Source: Syncephalis plumigaleata (Eukaryota > Zoopagomycota > Zoopagomycetes > Zoopagales > Piptocephalidaceae). From it: a stretch of DNA of 64,000 bases. Below are positions 13,881 to 43,460 of the stretch, one piece after another. Both the position numbers and the translations under genes were made by a program. A model generated the notes under the pieces. It saw nothing but the letters and a program-made list of their open reading frames with translations, had not been told where the DNA came from and did no database searches. The stretch covers positions 905,485 through 969,484 of the forward strand of contig JAIXMF010000009.1 of the NCBI GenBank assembly GCA_025201365.1, in the 5' to 3' direction. Within the stretch, counting starts at the first letter, position 1. Every line of letters starts with the position of its first letter.

Positions 13881-14432
13881 GCGTTACTGCTGGCTAGTTC
13901 TACTGGTTGTAGATAGTGTATACTCGTCACTTGTAGTGATCAATAGTGAATCGCCGCTTTGGATTCAATCAACAATAGAGCATATATAGATGAATGAAGA
14001 TAGAAAGTGGATGACCAGCAGTATAGTTGCACTTGCTGGTAGATAACCAACGATGCCTATAGGTGTATATAATACTAGTAATAGCGGTAGTAGTAGTAGT
14101 AGGAATAATAATAATAATAGTAAAGATGAATCAATAGAGAAGGAATAAAGAAGGATCCGCTATTTGCATAGGATCGTCAAGGGGGCGAGAGAGTAAAGTG
14201 CCGTGCTCTCACTGAATGTGTGTGTGTGTGTTGGTGAACAAAAAGCGTTTCTGACTTTGTAACTGTCATGAATAAGTTAATAGTAGGGTGGACATTGCCA
14301 CGTGAATATCAACCAATCAGCATGATCAATGTTATGATTAGCATTATTGGCTGAGCCATTGATTGTGATGCTTGATCATTTTGTTTAATAAACTGAATAT
14401 GAGTGCTTTTTTCTTTTGCTCCTCATTCTACG
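13881..14432. promoter_or_regulatory. Divergent intergenic region, SET2 / CMC4-like gene
   Basis: This 552-base gap separates outward-facing starts. It holds GTA/ATA triplet repeats near 14080-14120, a TG run near 14217, and an AT-rich stretch with CCAAT on the + strand near 14313. Promoter function is inferred from position. Confidence 0.35.
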
Positions 14433-37052: not shown

Positions 37053-37134
37053 CGACAGCTGCAGGATTCGAACCTACGCTCCCAAAGGGAAACGCCTTAG
37101 CAGGGCGCCGCCTTAACCGCTCGGCCAAACTGTC
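37053..37134 (-). tRNA. tRNA-Ser(GCT)
   Basis: The minus strand folds as a long-variable-arm tRNA. The acceptor stem pairs GACAGTT with AGCTGTC (one G-T pair), with discriminator G as usual for Ser. The anticodon stem is GCGCC/GGCGT around loop CTGCTAA, giving anticodon GCT. The variable arm (TTTCCCTTTGGGAGC region) is followed by GGTTCGAATCC, a perfect B box. No intron is seen. Its 5' end lies 9 bases from the LTR retrotransposon. Confidence 0.93.
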
Positions 37135-37208
37135 TTATTAGATTGTAATCCGCTCCTGTGATATATGAACTTCACAGTAGGATTTCCTCACTTTAACGAA
37201 TCTCCACC

Positions 37209-37224
37209 TAGATTTGATCACGTG
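37209..37224 (+). repeat. SINE target-site duplication, left copy
   Basis: TAGATTTGATCACGTG, present once in the 3' LTR but twice in the 5' LTR, immediately before the SINE head. Confidence 0.92.
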
Positions 37225-37548
37225 GAGGATGGGGTTGTAGCCAAGTGGTTACGCTCTATTTCTCGGACGAATAGGTCCTGGGTTCGATTCCTGCCAATCC
37301 CGTCATAGGGAAAAAGGTATCATTTCTAACTAGTTAACAGAAATGTTGACATTTATTAACCTACCGACTATATGCTAGTTGGTTTTCTGCTACACAACCG
37401 TGTTCTGCACTCGCAAGACACATTTCCATTCCGTGGGCATTGGGCTGTTTGTCAAATTGTTTGTTATTATAACCCTGGTTTATTCATTTATAATAAAAGA
37501 CGGCATATAGCCAAATATGTTCTAACAAGAAAAAAAAAAAAAAAAAAA
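37225..37548 (+). mobile_element. tRNA-derived SINE, 324 bases, poly(A) tail
   Basis: The head (about 37231-37302) is tRNA-like: GGGGTTG can pair with CAATCCC, an A box (TAGCCAAGTGG) and a B box (GGTTCGATTCC) are present, and an anticodon-like loop reads CTCGGAC. The D and T stems pair imperfectly, as in SINE heads. A roughly 225-base body unrelated to tRNA follows, then a run of 19 A (37530-37548). Perfect 16-base target copies flank it. Internal Pol III promoter, A tail and target duplication define LINE-mobilised SINEs. It codes for no protein. Confidence 0.88.
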
Positions 37549-37564
37549 TAGATTTGATCACGTG
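37549..37564 (+). repeat. SINE target-site duplication, right copy
   Basis: Second perfect copy of the 16-base target; LTR sequence resumes directly after it exactly as in the 3' LTR at 42725. Confidence 0.92.
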
Positions 37565-37987
37565 ATGATACACTTGCTCATTACTACGTCAGGATCTATA
37601 ACGATCACCCACTCGCCTCTTATTCCCTTACACAAACAATCAACAACCACCCGACGATTCAACATAAAGTAGCATTCGCCATGCTACGCTTCCCGCTCAT
37701 CAACAAGTACTACGCGAACTAGTACATCTTCGACTAACTCGGCAAAGATGCGCTGTAGCAAACTCACATCTACTGCTGGTACCTCTTTACATTCATAGCT
37801 GTTCTAGCTATATAAGCGTACTTACATTTATACGAAATAAAGACATTATCTTATCACACACTTACTCATCGAACAATACCCTCTACTCTACAATTCTCTC
37901 AACTTATCATAGTGTCTTATCTTAACACGAGCTCTCGAATCTATCGTAACATTATTTCAGGCAGAACAAATTGCCGCGTTACAATTT

Positions 37988-38073: not shown

Positions 38074-41000
38074 ATGGACGGCAAGATCGGATGTATGGAA
38101 GCCCCTACCTTCGGAGGACGCAAGAGTGAAGACCCCGAGAAATGGCTGAGCCGATTCAAGAAGATCAAACGTGCAAACAATTGGCTCGACGACCAAGCAA
38201 TCGCAATGGCAGGAGTCAGCTTAGAAGGGACGGCCGAGGCATGGTATGAATCCATCGAAGAAGTGACTACGACCTGGCAAGAATTCGAGAATGCCTTCCG
38301 TAGTAAATATGTTACCGTTGGCTATAAACATCATGCAACTAGGCAGCTCTTCTCGTATCGTCAAGGAAAAGAAGAATCCATCGACGAGCTACTCACCACA
38401 TTGGATAGCCTGATCAAGCGTGCGGAAATTACAAGCGACGAGGTCAAGTTGGAATTACTAGCTCAAGCTATTCGACCGGAGTACAAGCGTGAATTTCGAA
38501 AGGAAGGTCCAAATACATACCGACGAGCCAAGGAGTTATTACTGCGAGAAGAAAGTCTTGATTTAGAAGCGCAGGATATCTTACCAAGTATCAAGGCATC
38601 CTACGACCAACCAGCGTTAATTGGTCGGACCAAGAGCGAAGAAAGCAAGAGTCAGTCTCTCGAAACCAGCATGGAACGTCTAATGGAGCGATTTCAAGAA
38701 ATGTCGCTCAACATGATACAAGCCATGGTACAAGAAAAGAACAAACCCACGGAACGAAACAATGAGCGTTCATTCAGCGAAAGACGATGTTACAATTGTC
38801 AAGGCAAAGGACATATGGCCCGAGAATGTCCCCAGAGACAAGGAGAAAATCTGAATCTATTAGATAACGATGCTAATGAAGATGATTTGTTCCCCTTAGG
38901 AAAGAGGAAAGAACGAGATATAGCTATTCCCGCTACAAGGAAGAACGCTAGAAAAGCCGTTGCTACCGATATGGAAATGGATATCCAAGAACAGACGGTA
39001 CCAACAACACACGTTGCGCAACCAACGGTACAAGCGAAGGATGTACCACGAAGGAAAGCCCCCGCAGCGAAAGAAGGAAATGTGGCTGCAAGAGTTCCCC
39101 GGCAACCACGAATGCCTCCTAATCTAAATTTGGAGACAGACAGAAATGCGTACAAGATTGAGGATCAACTACGTTCGACGCCAGCAAATATCTCGATTGC
39201 ACAACTGATTTACCAATCACCGGCAATCAGACAACAGTTAGCACGAGCTTTACGACGTGAGATGGATGCCAACAATCTTGATGATGAAATTGGTCACAAT
39301 TACACTTCAGCTCGACGACGTGTAATCATCAACGGTATAGAAGTAATGGCAATTATCGATACTGGAGCTGCCAGCTCGGTGATCAGCCCTGCGTTGGTCT
39401 CACACTTAGGTATACGACCTAGACACCGCGTTGATCGAGTATTGGTCACCGCAGATGGACAACGACATACTCCCCGGCATATGGTGAAAGACTTACCCAT
39501 AAGTATTGGACCCCTCACTTTACCCGCGGATATCATTGTATTCGAAAGAACAGGTCATCTACTGATTCTAGGTATCGACTGGATGAAGAGAAATTCCATT
39601 ACACCAGATATCATTCAAAACAAGTTAATTTATCGAAAGGATGGTATAACAATGGAAATTCCCATGAATACGCAGCAGTACGACGATATCGACCCCCTAT
39701 TAGAGGACGCTCCCGTATTTGCCGCTCCAGACACGCCTCCAACGGATACCGCTAGCATTGAAACCTTATTCGAACATTTCAGTGTACAAAATGAAGGAGT
39801 AACTGCAGTGAACAGTCAGAGCGATTCAGGAAACGATGCAGATCTCGATATCATGGACCCGGACGATCTGTTTGGACTCGCAGTCACTACACCAACCACT
39901 GCTTATCAACCGTTACCGGAAGACGACAGAGCCCAGTTACAAGCGGTAGTTGACGACTTTAAGGATGTTTTCGCAGAGGAAATCGAGGAATTAGGACGTA
40001 CAACCGCAGCAACGCACTCGATTGATACAGGAGATCATTCGCCGGTAAGAATTCGACCTTACCGTGTACCACAAGCAATGCTACGTCAAATCAAAGAAGA
40101 AATCGAGAAGATGAAGCAAAGTGGCGTAATCGAAGAAGCACAATCACCCTGGTGTGCTCCACTTGTGCCCATTCAAAAGAAGAACGGTGGATTACGTCTA
40201 TGTGTCGACTATCGAAAGTTAAATGCAATCACTAGAAAGGATAAGTATCCCTTACCTTTAATTGACGAAATCATGGACGCCTTAGGTGGATCATCAGTTT
40301 ACTCAACACTCGATGCGCGTTCTGGATATTGGCAAGTCCCTTTGGCTACGGAAGACGATCGCGACAAAACGGCTTTTGCAATCCCTGGTGGAGGCTTTTA
40401 CCGCTTTTTAGTTATGCCTTTCGGTCTAGCAAACGCCCCTGGAACGTATCAACGCATGATGGAACGTGTGTTCGCTGATATGTTATGGAAAAACGTCATA
40501 GTATTCATTGACGACATTATTATTTACTCGAAGAATGTGGACGAACATTTGGAACATCTAAAAATAGCCCTCGATAGATGCCGAAAAGTTCAACTTCAAC
40601 TATCTCCCACTAAATGCTTCATTGGATATCAAGGACTGGAATATTTAGGTTTTCGAATTTCAGCTCATGGTTTAGCACCCACCCCGAACAAAATCGATGC
40701 GATTATACATGCTAAACCACCTACTAACGCTACGACAGTTAGATCATTTATGGGCCTGGCCAGTTATTATAGACGCTTTGTGGAAGGCTTTGCAACTATA
40801 TCACGCCCATTAAATCGATTAATGCGGAAGAATACGCCCTGGTCGTGGGATGAAGATCAAATAGAAGCGTTTCAAACGTTGCAATCCAAACTCGCTAACG
40901 CTCCTATTCTACGATTTGTAGATTGGAACTTACCTTTTGTTTTAACTACAGATGGATCTGGACGAGGTCTTGGAGCAATCCTACAACAACGGTTGCCCGA

Positions 41001-42615
41001 TCAGAAGGAAGTTGTTATTTCTTATGCTAGCCGTAGTCTCAGTCAAGCCGAAAGCAATTATAGTCCCACCCACCTGGAAGGACTCGCCGTCATATGGGCT
41101 GTAAAGCATTACCGACATTACCTGTATGGACGACGATTTACGCTTAAAACGGATCACTCTGCATTATTATCGCTATTTAAGACGTCAGAACCACTCACCG
41201 GTCGACTAGCTAGATGGCAATTAATGTTAATGGAATACGACTACGACATCGAACATATCAAAGGCAAGATAAACCCGGCCGATTACTTATCTCGACATCC
41301 AGCTCCTATGGAACAGCATACCGACCTATTTGCAATGTCATTCACCTTCTATAACGCAACTAGAGATTATGTGAACAAAATGGTTTATCCTACCAACGCC
41401 ACGGAAATTGAAAGAAAGCGATTACGAAGAATCGCAGGAAAGTATAAGGTTATCGATGATAAATTGTATCAAGTTATCAATAATCAGGAAAAGGAAGTAT
41501 TACATGAGCATAACGCTCACGAGGAAATAGCAAGGATACATAATGAAGGACACAATGGTGTCGAAAATACATGGAGACGTGTGAAGATGCGTTTCGCCGG
41601 CATCGGTTTATACAAAGTCGTAAAAGAAGTAGTAAAAGGATGCGACATATGCCAGCGAAATACCACGACGGCCATTAGACAGGAACCTATGCATTCTATC
41701 AGTTCCAGTTATCCATTCCAATTACTCGGTGTTGACGCCATGGGACCCATCAACCCCATCAGTACGTCTGGAAATCGATATATTTTGACAGCTATCGATT
41801 ACTTCACTAAATGGCCTATTGCTCGAGCTACCAAGGATATCACCACTGAGACGGTCATTCGTTTCTTAATAGAAGATGTTGTGGCATTATATGGAGTTCC
41901 TCAGCAGTTAATTACGGATCGAGGAGCCGACTTCACGAGCGATTTAGCCGACGAATTCTTTAAGTATTTACGAATTCATCATACTCCTACTACTGCTTAT
42001 AGACCACAAGCGAACGGTCAAGTAGAACGGTTAAATCGAACATTGAAAGAGCAGCTAACTAAACTGACTAACGGCAATTTACAATGGGATGTAGATTTAT
42101 GGAAAGCTTTATTAGTTATTCGCACCATGACCAGTGCTACTACGAAGTTTACCCCTAGTCGTTTGTTATATGGTTATGAGCTCAAAACGCCAGCCGTGTG
42201 GACGTTGAATACGAATAGTTTCATTGATTCCGAAGAAGAATACGATCAGCGTTTACAAAGTATTCAGTACGAATTACCGAAGTTACGAGAAGTGGCTCAA
42301 GAGAATACGCGAATTGCACAGATACGTCAGAAGATTCGCTACGATCGAACGGTTCAACCGCGTTCTTTCCAACCAAATACGGAGGTTTTATTACGGGTAA
42401 TGGTATCATCAAGCGGAAAATTCACTAACTTGTATGATGGACCGTACAAAGTCATTCGTTTATTACACCCCGGTACTTACCTTATATCGGATGGTAAGAG
42501 TTTCGATATCGTTCACGTCGACAGACTTAAACCATACCATGAATATCAACAAATGATACCTGTCGTTCGACCAAGCCAACTACGATCCACTCTTCGCCGC
42601 TTCCGACAACCTTGA
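38074..42615 (+). CDS. Ty3/gypsy Gag-Pol polyprotein, single intact frame
   Basis: 1513 codons with no stop or shift. Order by residue: Gag capsid-like domain (about 24-110, with WLSRFKKI and GTAEAWYESI); CCHC zinc knuckle (239-252, CYNCQGKGHMAREC); aspartic protease (IIDTGAASSVIS, about 427); reverse transcriptase (about 660-840, with LRLCVDYRKLNA and the active site FIDD near 811); RNase H (TTDGSGRGLGAIL, about 960); integrase zinc finger (H-x3-H ... CDICQ, about 1155-1195); integrase core D-D-E (GVDAMGP near 1218, TDRGADF near 1280, GQVERLNRTL near 1314); and a C-terminal GPY/F module (YDGPYKVIR, about 1454). No chromodomain follows. Gag and Pol share one frame as in Tf1-type elements, so the Gag:Pol ratio must be set after translation. 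Everything needed for transposition appears intact. Confidence 0.95.
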   Translation: MDGKIGCMEAPTFGGRKSEDPEKWLSRFKKIKRANNWLDDQAIAMAGVSLEGTAEAWYESIEEVTTTWQEFENAFRSKYVTVGYKHHATRQLFSYRQGKEESIDELLTTLDSLIKRAEITSDEVKLELLAQAIRPEYKREFRKEGPNTYRRAKELLLREESLDLEAQDILPSIKASYDQPALIGRTKSEESKSQSLETSMERLMERFQEMSLNMIQAMVQEKNKPTERNNERSFSERRCYNCQGKGHMARECPQRQGENLNLLDNDANEDDLFPLGKRKERDIAIPATRKNARKAVATDMEMDIQEQTVPTTHVAQPTVQAKDVPRRKAPAAKEGNVAARVPRQPRMPPNLNLETDRNAYKIEDQLRSTPANISIAQLIYQSPAIRQQLARALRREMDANNLDDEIGHNYTSARRRVIINGIEVMAIIDTGAASSVISPALVSHLGIRPRHRVDRVLVTADGQRHTPRHMVKDLPISIGPLTLPADIIVFERTGHLLILGIDWMKRNSITPDIIQNKLIYRKDGITMEIPMNTQQYDDIDPLLEDAPVFAAPDTPPTDTASIETLFEHFSVQNEGVTAVNSQSDSGNDADLDIMDPDDLFGLAVTTPTTAYQPLPEDDRAQLQAVVDDFKDVFAEEIEELGRTTAATHSIDTGDHSPVRIRPYRVPQAMLRQIKEEIEKMKQSGVIEEAQSPWCAPLVPIQKKNGGLRLCVDYRKLNAITRKDKYPLPLIDEIMDALGGSSVYSTLDARSGYWQVPLATEDDRDKTAFAIPGGGFYRFLVMPFGLANAPGTYQRMMERVFADMLWKNVIVFIDDIIIYSKNVDEHLEHLKIALDRCRKVQLQLSPTKCFIGYQGLEYLGFRISAHGLAPTPNKIDAIIHAKPPTNATTVRSFMGLASYYRRFVEGFATISRPLNRLMRKNTPWSWDEDQIEAFQTLQSKLANAPILRFVDWNLPFVLTTDGSGRGLGAILQQRLPDQKEVVISYASRSLSQAESNYSPTHLEGLAVIWAVKHYRHYLYGRRFTLKTDHSALLSLFKTSEPLTGRLARWQLMLMEYDYDIEHIKGKINPADYLSRHPAPMEQHTDLFAMSFTFYNATRDYVNKMVYPTNATEIERKRLRRIAGKYKVIDDKLYQVINNQEKEVLHEHNAHEEIARIHNEGHNGVENTWRRVKMRFAGIGLYKVVKEVVKGCDICQRNTTTAIRQEPMHSISSSYPFQLLGVDAMGPINPISTSGNRYILTAIDYFTKWPIARATKDITTETVIRFLIEDVVALYGVPQQLITDRGADFTSDLADEFFKYLRIHHTPTTAYRPQANGQVERLNRTLKEQLTKLTNGNLQWDVDLWKALLVIRTMTSATTKFTPSRLLYGYELKTPAVWTLNTNSFIDSEEEYDQRLQSIQYELPKLREVAQENTRIAQIRQKIRYDRTVQPRSFQPNTEVLLRVMVSSSGKFTNLYDGPYKVIRLLHPGTYLISDGKSFDIVHVDRLKPYHEYQQMIPVVRPSQLRSTLRRFRQP

Positions 42616-42643: not shown

Positions 42644-43143
42644 TGTAATCCGCTCCTGTGATATATGAACTTCACAGTAGGATTTCCTCACTTTAACGAA
42701 TCTCCACCTAGATTTGATCACGTGATGATACACTTGCTCATTACTACGTCAGGATCTATAACGATCACCCACTCGCCTCTTATTCCCTTACACAAACAAT
42801 CAACAACCACCCGACGATTCAACATAAAGTAGCATTCGCCATGCTACGCTTCCCGCTCATCAACAAGTACTACGCGAACTAGTACATCTTCGACTAACTC
42901 GGCAAAGATGCGCTGTAGCAAACTCACATCTACTGCTGGTACCTCTTTACATTCATAGCTGTTCTAGCTATATAAGCGTACTTACATTTATACGAAATAA
43001 AGACATTATCTTATCACACACTTACTCATCGAACAATACCCTCTACTCTACAATTCTCTCAACTTATCATAGTGTCTTATCTTAACACGAGCTCTCGAAT
43101 CTATCGTAACATTATTTCAGGCAGAACAAATTGCCGCGTTACA
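42644..43143 (+). repeat. 3' LTR
   Basis: 500 bases from TGTAATCCGC to GCGTTACA, 28 bases past the gag-pol stop. It is uninterrupted and defines the original LTR sequence. Carries the same TATA box (near 42968) and AATAAA. Confidence 0.95.
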
Positions 43144-43388: not shown

Positions 43389-43460
43389 GGTTTTATGGTG
43401 TAATGGCTAGCACGAGAGACTTTGAATCTCTAGATCCGAGTTCGATCCTCGGTAAGACCT
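43389..43460 (+). tRNA. tRNA-Gln(TTG)
   Basis: Acceptor GGTTTTA pairs with TAAGACC. The anticodon stem AGAGA/TCTCT encloses loop CTTTGAA with anticodon TTG. The T arm CCGAG-TTCGATC-CTCGG pairs perfectly. Discriminator T. A TTTTT run at 43464 serves as Pol III terminator. Before the LTR element arrived it lay about 250 bases from tRNA-Ser in divergent orientation. Confidence 0.93.

Follow-up and report, generated by a model that had tools for sequence, protein, structure and literature searches.

The window, a 64,000-nucleotide stretch of Syncephalis plumigaleata DNA, contains a gypsy retrotransposon whose 5' LTR is interrupted by an insert that we term SINE1 (Table 1). Alignment bears out the original prediction that a 324-bp SINE lies in the 5' LTR between two copies of a 16-bp target, of which the 3' LTR holds just one, and that it is made up of a tRNA-like head with A and B boxes, a body and 19 A residues. 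The predicted order of events, with SINE1 arriving after the LTR insertion, also stands: the 5' LTR is filled and the 3' LTR empty, and the 5' LTR pieces (bases 1-81 and 66-500) match the 3' LTR at 100% identity. The gypsy element is itself flanked by a 4-bp target duplication, AGAT. ARAGORN labels the SINE1 head tRNA-Pro(CGG), which is also the closest host tRNA (71%) among those in the fetched segments; at the curated Rfam threshold, the head is absent from the tRNA listing. What the original prediction overlooked is that the insertion point is not arbitrary. SINE1 begins 90 bp from a tRNA-Ser gene, within the spacing common to most of its copies, and so we regard the finding as one of targeted integration, beyond a clean pair of empty and filled sites. 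Past the 3' LTR, no match to SINE1 or to the SINE2, LINE-A and LINE-B elements described below was found upstream of the tRNA-Gln(TTG) gene.

Table 1. Features at the locus, in window positions; the last three rows give SINE2 copies at their own loci.
Feature	Position	Strand	Details
tRNA-Ser(GCT), presumed target	37053..37134	-	9 bp to LTR start, 90 bp to SINE1 5' end
Gypsy 5' LTR	37144..37983	+	500 bp plus SINE1 and one additional target copy
Target duplication (16 bp), 5' copy	37209..37224	+	TAGATTTGATCACGTG, LTR bases 66-81
SINE1 (tRNA-like head, body, A19)	37225..37548	+	324 bp
A box of SINE1 head	37238..37248	+	TAGCCAAGTGG
B box of SINE1 head	37281..37291	+	GGTTCGATTCC
SINE1 3' region (bases 194-305)	37418..37529	+	~82% identity to LINE-B 3' end
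SINE1 tail	37530..37548	+	19 A
Target duplication (16 bp), 3' copy	37549..37564	+	TAGATTTGATCACGTG
Gypsy gag-pol ORF, intact	38074..42615	+	1513 aa: gag, zinc knuckle, protease, RT, RNase H, integrase
Gypsy 3' LTR	42644..43143	+	Single empty SINE site 42709-42724
tRNA-Gln(TTG)	43389..43460	+	245 bp past 3' LTR
SINE2	L108:74-406 (C148:7773-8105)
SINE2	C35:128928-129259
SINE2	C35:130960-131290

A search of the 32.6-Mb genome (383 contigs) with the SINE1 insert as query, in which the best 40 of 54 candidates were scored, gave at least 49 matches, so the idea that the insert might be single-copy fails. For a gene of this host, the best named hits come from Jimgerdemannia and Rhizopus, at 43-47%, which suggests a fungus close to Mucoromycota. 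At least 27 copies are full-length, with a mean pairwise divergence of 0.7% and a maximum of 1.65%, in keeping with the recent activity that had been predicted. The 27 listed have 10 distinct bodies and A tails of 10-24 residues. Target duplications differ in sequence among most of the listed copies (best-match strings of 14-20 bp), and no nick-site motif was seen when they were read by eye; three copies (L025, one in L015 and one in L030) are missing a target duplication of their own. The boxed Pol III-type head, the many copies and the varied duplications and tails together identify the insert, at the level of its sequence, as a tRNA-derived SINE.

The LINE partner that the original prediction had implied is present as well. 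When the end of the SINE1 body was compared with LINE 3' ends, the match was to LINE-B, and an exact 20-base word from the SINE1 tail occurs at 45 places in the genome, 32 of them SINE1 and 13 LINE-B or LINE-B-like ends; the reversed word, used as a control, occurs nowhere in it. On C92, LINE-B contains two open frames, of 554 and 1317 aa. The open frames of a second family, LINE-A, measure 572-576 and 1262-1266 aa on C290 and C317, and its 5' end carries a tandem repeat of 43 bp. ORF2 of both families contains the Pfam domains Exo_endo_phos (an APE nuclease), RVT_1 and zf-RVT, with 49% identity between the two over the aligned part, and the nearest solved chain to LINE-A is human L1 ORF2p (E 2.8e-68). 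By their domains, and for LINE-A also by this nearest-chain match, we class the two as L1-type non-LTR retrotransposons. SINE/LINE pairs with a common 3' tail are a recognised general class.

The position of SINE1 relative to Pol III genes is strikingly regular. Run on the fetched loci, ARAGORN first placed a tRNA gene close to most copies; gaps were taken in genome coordinates, and Rfam recovers the target tRNA or 5S gene in all 21 cases in which SINE1 directly adjoins one, including two 5S genes and a tRNA-Ile with an intron. These 21, among 37 listed copies with an intact 5' end, have their 5' end 75-106 bp upstream of the gene, with gaps of 75, 83, 88 (four copies), 89 (two), 90 (four), 93, 94 (two), 95 (two), 101, 105 (two) and 106 bp; the median is 90 bp, 16 of the 21 fall at 83-95 bp, and every one is divergent to its gene. 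The targets comprise tRNA genes for Ser, Val, Leu, Glu, Phe, Asn, Ala, Gln, Cys, Arg, Pro and Ile, as well as 5S. At the intron-bearing tRNA-Ile, the gap is 88 bp (the first 5 SINE1 bases are unaligned), which hints that the spacing is measured from the 5' end of the gene and not from box B. The two 5S gaps, 75 and 83 bp, are shorter, as might be anticipated were the distance set from the start site, given the short leader of tRNA transcripts.

LINE-B keeps the spacing of SINE1, and LINE-A in most cases a somewhat shorter one. LINE-B 5' ends lie 91 bp from a tRNA-Tyr gene on C92 (named tRNA-Leu when ARAGORN was run without introns), while on C148 and C223 the neighbouring gene is 5S, at ~85 and 83 bp, and another lies at 90 bp on C46 after subtraction of later material. 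LINE-A 5' ends lie at 80 (tRNA-Phe), 83 (tRNA-Thr) and 77 bp (tRNA-Tyr), and at 82 bp on C112 after subtraction; a 56-bp LINE-A fragment on C2, at 95 bp, is outside the main spacing. No Pol III gene was found in the fetched flank of the LINE-B at C1:770261, or in those of the LINE-B-like ends on C32 and C90.

For a 75-106-bp window chosen post hoc, and taking 956 tRNA candidates to represent the full set of Pol III genes, the chance per copy is 4.7e-4, or 0.017 copies expected among 37, and the probability of 21 or more has a log10 of -59.8. We also ran the comparison in reverse, from genes picked without regard to the elements: the best 63 of 956 tRNA candidates, and 22 5S genes from the best 47 of 936 candidates. 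SINE1 was found 88-106 bp upstream of 7 of the 63 tRNA genes, with two more at 201 and 208 bp behind a 5S gene, and upstream of 2 of the 22 5S genes, at 75 and 83 bp. On the downstream side, up to 300 bp, the 5S genes had no SINE1 and the tRNA genes had one, at a tRNA-Met that stands head-to-head with the true target, a tRNA-Leu. Around these same 85 genes, 9 of 37 SINE1 copies lay within 120 bp and 15 of 37 within 6 kb, against 0/71, 0/71 and 2/71 of other LTR-type RT hits within 120 bp, 3 kb and 6 kb, respectively. Those 71 hits were drawn from the best 150 of 179, with the window gypsy family, LINEs and lower-scoring rows excluded. A further control, 30 other RT loci totalling 104,460 bp with no tRNA found in them, is weak because the loci lie mostly inside long elements.

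The 16 remaining copies fall into several groups. Three fit after subtraction: on C65, 591 bp to a tRNA-Sec gene becomes 87 bp once a solo LTR (500 bp) and its 4-bp duplication are removed, the same kind of correction gives 92 bp at C322:7000, and on C46 the gap is 91 bp without an 84-bp extra stretch at the SINE1 5' end. That stretch (C46:31598-31681) lies within the target duplication and perhaps arose by a template jump. Six more copies, on C2 (two), C317, C1:387278, C290 and C112, are in piles at Pol III genes, where they sit behind LINE-A, LINE-B, gypsy or another SINE, and one (C322:5537) belongs to a pile at a SINE head. For the other six, no Pol III gene lies where one would be expected. 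Among these misfits, C88:3009 is in a rearranged LTR, C351:74823 is beside a LINE-A and C340:1090277 is unexplained, and the last three (C268, C35:171146 and C1:2444832; L035, L036 and L037, respectively) share an unusual structure.

In these three copies, which we call SINE3, bases 1-205 of SINE1 are joined to a foreign tail ending in (TC)n. They carry target duplications, and none has a Pol III gene within 400 bp. A Pol III gene is found for 0/3 swapped-tail copies versus 20/22 unstacked full-length SINE1 copies (Fisher P 0.004, with the copies sorted post hoc). SINE heads also appear at the other end of the relationship: at three places, a LINE 5' end stands upstream of a SINE 5' end, in divergent orientation, at 74 (C351), 86 (C1:2444832) or 94 bp (C322), with no tRNA between the members of any of the three pairs, much as though the head of the SINE were being read as a tRNA gene. 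On C322, a 5'-truncated LINE-B, a SINE1 and a 5'-truncated LINE-A are stacked 94 bp upstream of another SINE1, and a predicted junction between an LTR end and a LINE-A 3' end was found there. From these few cases, we think the chances about even that the 3' tail sets the target, such that a SINE would inherit Pol III targeting through its tail while its head seeds new targets. As separate observations, a 41-bp part of the SINE3 foreign tail recurs at many places in the genome (best 40 of 84 candidates scored), and the 74-bp spacer between LINE-A and SINE1 on C351 (C351:74749-74822) resembles, by eye, the start of a gene for a signal-peptide protein.

The gypsy family has a spacing of its own. 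Among LTRs with examined flanks, 15 lie 5-27 bp upstream of tRNA genes, with the LTR start facing the tRNA in 14 and the LTR end in one (C88), and for five that are upstream of 5S genes the gap is 3-4 bp; two additional gypsy LTR ends are 104 and 245 bp from a tRNA. For the gypsy on C112, a tRNA was predicted at the outer end and then found 9 bp away. Together, these 20 LTRs, all 3-27 bp upstream of their genes, mark the family as Ty3-like, with integration at the Pol III start site. We considered, and rejected, the spread of SINE1 as a passenger of gypsy: the duplications at the shared LTR site vary from ~14 to 17 bp, and the 3' LTR in the window is empty.

One gypsy LTR site is occupied by SINE1 in eight separate gypsy copies, and LINE-A and LINE-B copies also lie at this site or within 10 bp of it. 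Such recurrence is what would be seen if the LINE endonuclease recognised the LTR sequence TAGATTTGATCACGTG itself, and one copy, C1:388, lends this some weight: its gypsy is 23 bp out from the tRNA, 14 bp farther than in the window, and yet SINE1 has entered at LTR base 81/82, with a gap of 105 bp. A local site preference may therefore act inside the spacing window. Recognition of the LTR sequence nevertheless seems improbable as the main explanation. Most other target duplications are unrelated to it in sequence; the filled LTR adjoins a tRNA in seven of the eight cases, the eighth being rearranged, while the tRNA-distal 3' LTR in the window is empty; and at least 37 LTRs are uninterrupted (37 among the best 40 of 49 candidates). 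Several of the latter stand beside tRNA or 5S genes and still have no SINE, so filling is not automatic even there. On C88, where the LTR is reversed, SINE1 occupies a different part of it, bases 440-455, and is still 88 bp from tRNA-Ala. This case, together with the differing target duplications, indicates that sequence is not the key. We find the eight hits best explained by the gypsy spacing of 3-27 bp to Pol III genes, which puts LTR bases 66-82 at the distance where SINE1 enters.

Copies might also gather at these genes passively, because insertions favour the open chromatin there, or by survival bias, if inserts land widely and persist only beside tRNA genes; the neighbourhood of a Pol III gene may be safe for an insert, and a degree of filtering is possible. 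Neither would readily place 16 of 21 copies at 83-95 bp with one orientation in all 21, or give LINE-A, LINE-B and gypsy differing offsets with downstream counterparts nearly absent; moreover, the copies are young, which leaves little time for filtering. We accordingly hold a passive origin of the pattern to be a poor candidate, no better placed than recognition of the LTR sequence. Poorer by far is the idea that a single tRNA-SINE unit was multiplied by segmental duplication, or that the pattern is an artefact of assembly, which we believe can practically be set aside. Repeats rich in tRNA genes are prone to misassembly, and C92 has two tRNA-Tyr flanks in inverted order, but the targets are varied tRNAs and 5S genes, and target duplications and A-tail lengths differ. 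The C92 arrangement comprises two tRNA-Tyr genes that share an 80-bp flank (C92:7233-7398 and 14110-14286), one carrying LINE-A at 77 bp and the other LINE-B at 91 bp.

The spacing, the orientation, the recurrence, the shared tail and the open LINE-B ORFs are direct observations, and we consider it highly likely that they reflect a SINE and its LINE partner targeting Pol III genes together, with LINE-B mobilising SINE1 and insertion at a set spacing. SINE1 would be non-autonomous and copied by LINE-B, with its APE endonuclease, RT and zinc finger, through the common 3' tail. The A tails, the target duplications and the APE nuclease point to target-primed reverse transcription. We suggest that the LINE machinery would nick the DNA first at ~74 bp and then at ~90 bp upstream of a Pol III gene (tRNA or 5S) in its assembled state, that the sequence at the nicks would matter little, and that the copy would be placed divergently, its 5' end facing the gene. 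The guide could be a factor bound at or near the start site, such as TFIIIB, with a reach specific to each element (~80 bp for LINE-A, ~90 bp for LINE-B and SINE1). Gypsy, by integrating 3-27 bp upstream in the manner of Ty3, would put LTR bases 66-82 in the firing line. Each insert would duplicate its target, and the next could reuse that copy, although the order of insertion is unproven by the duplications. The pile on C290 reads, outward from tRNA-Thr, LTR 1-74, LINE-A, LTR 56-81, LINE-B end, SINE1 and LTR 66-500.

The closest known counterparts are in dictyostelids, where TRE5, TRE3, NLTR-A and NLTR-B are tRNA-targeted non-LTR elements; a 2018 review, in the excerpt available, lists tRNA-gene-targeted non-LTR elements for dictyostelids only (PMC5911963). 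Dictyostelium TRE5 (TRE5-A) integrates 40-54 bp upstream of tRNA genes in opposite orientation, its ORF1 contacts TFIIIB, and it also hits 5S genes, according to the same excerpt (PMC5911963). The elements described here resemble it in their fixed upstream spacing, opposite orientation, 5S hits and an ORF2 with APE, RT and zinc finger. They differ in distance (77-83 bp for most LINE-A and ~75-106 bp for LINE-B and SINE1, versus ~40-54 bp) and in having a fungal host, and the excerpted TRE5 account includes no SINE of such behaviour. Because the behaviour is TRE5-like but the distance longer, we do not file them as TRE5, and our best reading of the comparison is that the Pol III-aimed SINE/LINE pair is convergent with it. 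Convergent targeting, and a Ty3-like element, DGLT-A, are described from dictyostelids in PMC5006619. The window gypsy resembles yeast Ty3 and Dictyostelium DGLT-A in its place at the Pol III start site (5-27 bp from tRNA genes and 3-4 bp from 5S genes; PMC5006619 for the known elements), and differs from both in host and sequence.

Among filamentous fungi, tRNA-derived SINEs such as Aspergillus fumigatus AfuSINE2 share the tRNA-related head and the target duplications, which are 4-14 bp there and mostly 14-20 bp here; the excerpt of that account makes no mention of integration at Pol III genes (PMC5063351). Among the papers listed, mostly open-access, titles and abstract openings yielded no fungal LINE and no SINE with such targeting. 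Should a tree bear out a separate origin, a fungal Pol III-targeted LINE accompanied by a SINE would mean that the same solution has been invented once more. The system also offers natural experiments, namely one SINE body with two tails and three element classes that keep different offsets to the same kind of gene, and in its layered inserts the original distances can be recovered by subtraction. If retargeting by tail exchange is true, then what directs LINE and SINE integration becomes testable.

A second pair is present in the genome. SINE2 is 333 bp long, with its own tRNA-like head, and its last ~50 bp match LINE-C (best 40 of 84 candidates scored). SINE1/LINE-B and SINE2/LINE-C thus both share 3' ends, and SINE1 additionally shows the Pol III spacing of its LINE. 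Most of the SINE2 and LINE-C 5' ends that could be placed lie upstream of tRNAs, at 246-510 bp or farther (815 and 1379 bp). On these thin data, their assignment to a downstream-integrating, TRE3-like family is not upheld; two of the three downstream cases also have a divergent tRNA beyond. SINE2 and LINE-C have repeatedly inserted at SINE1 bases 133-166. Finally, the tRNA-Sec gene on C65 (C65:2735-2821; L004:2411-2496) is called as a selenocysteine tRNA by Rfam at 74.7 bits in this fungal genome; selenoprotein use in early-diverging fungi has been reported, as excerpted from PMC10386755.
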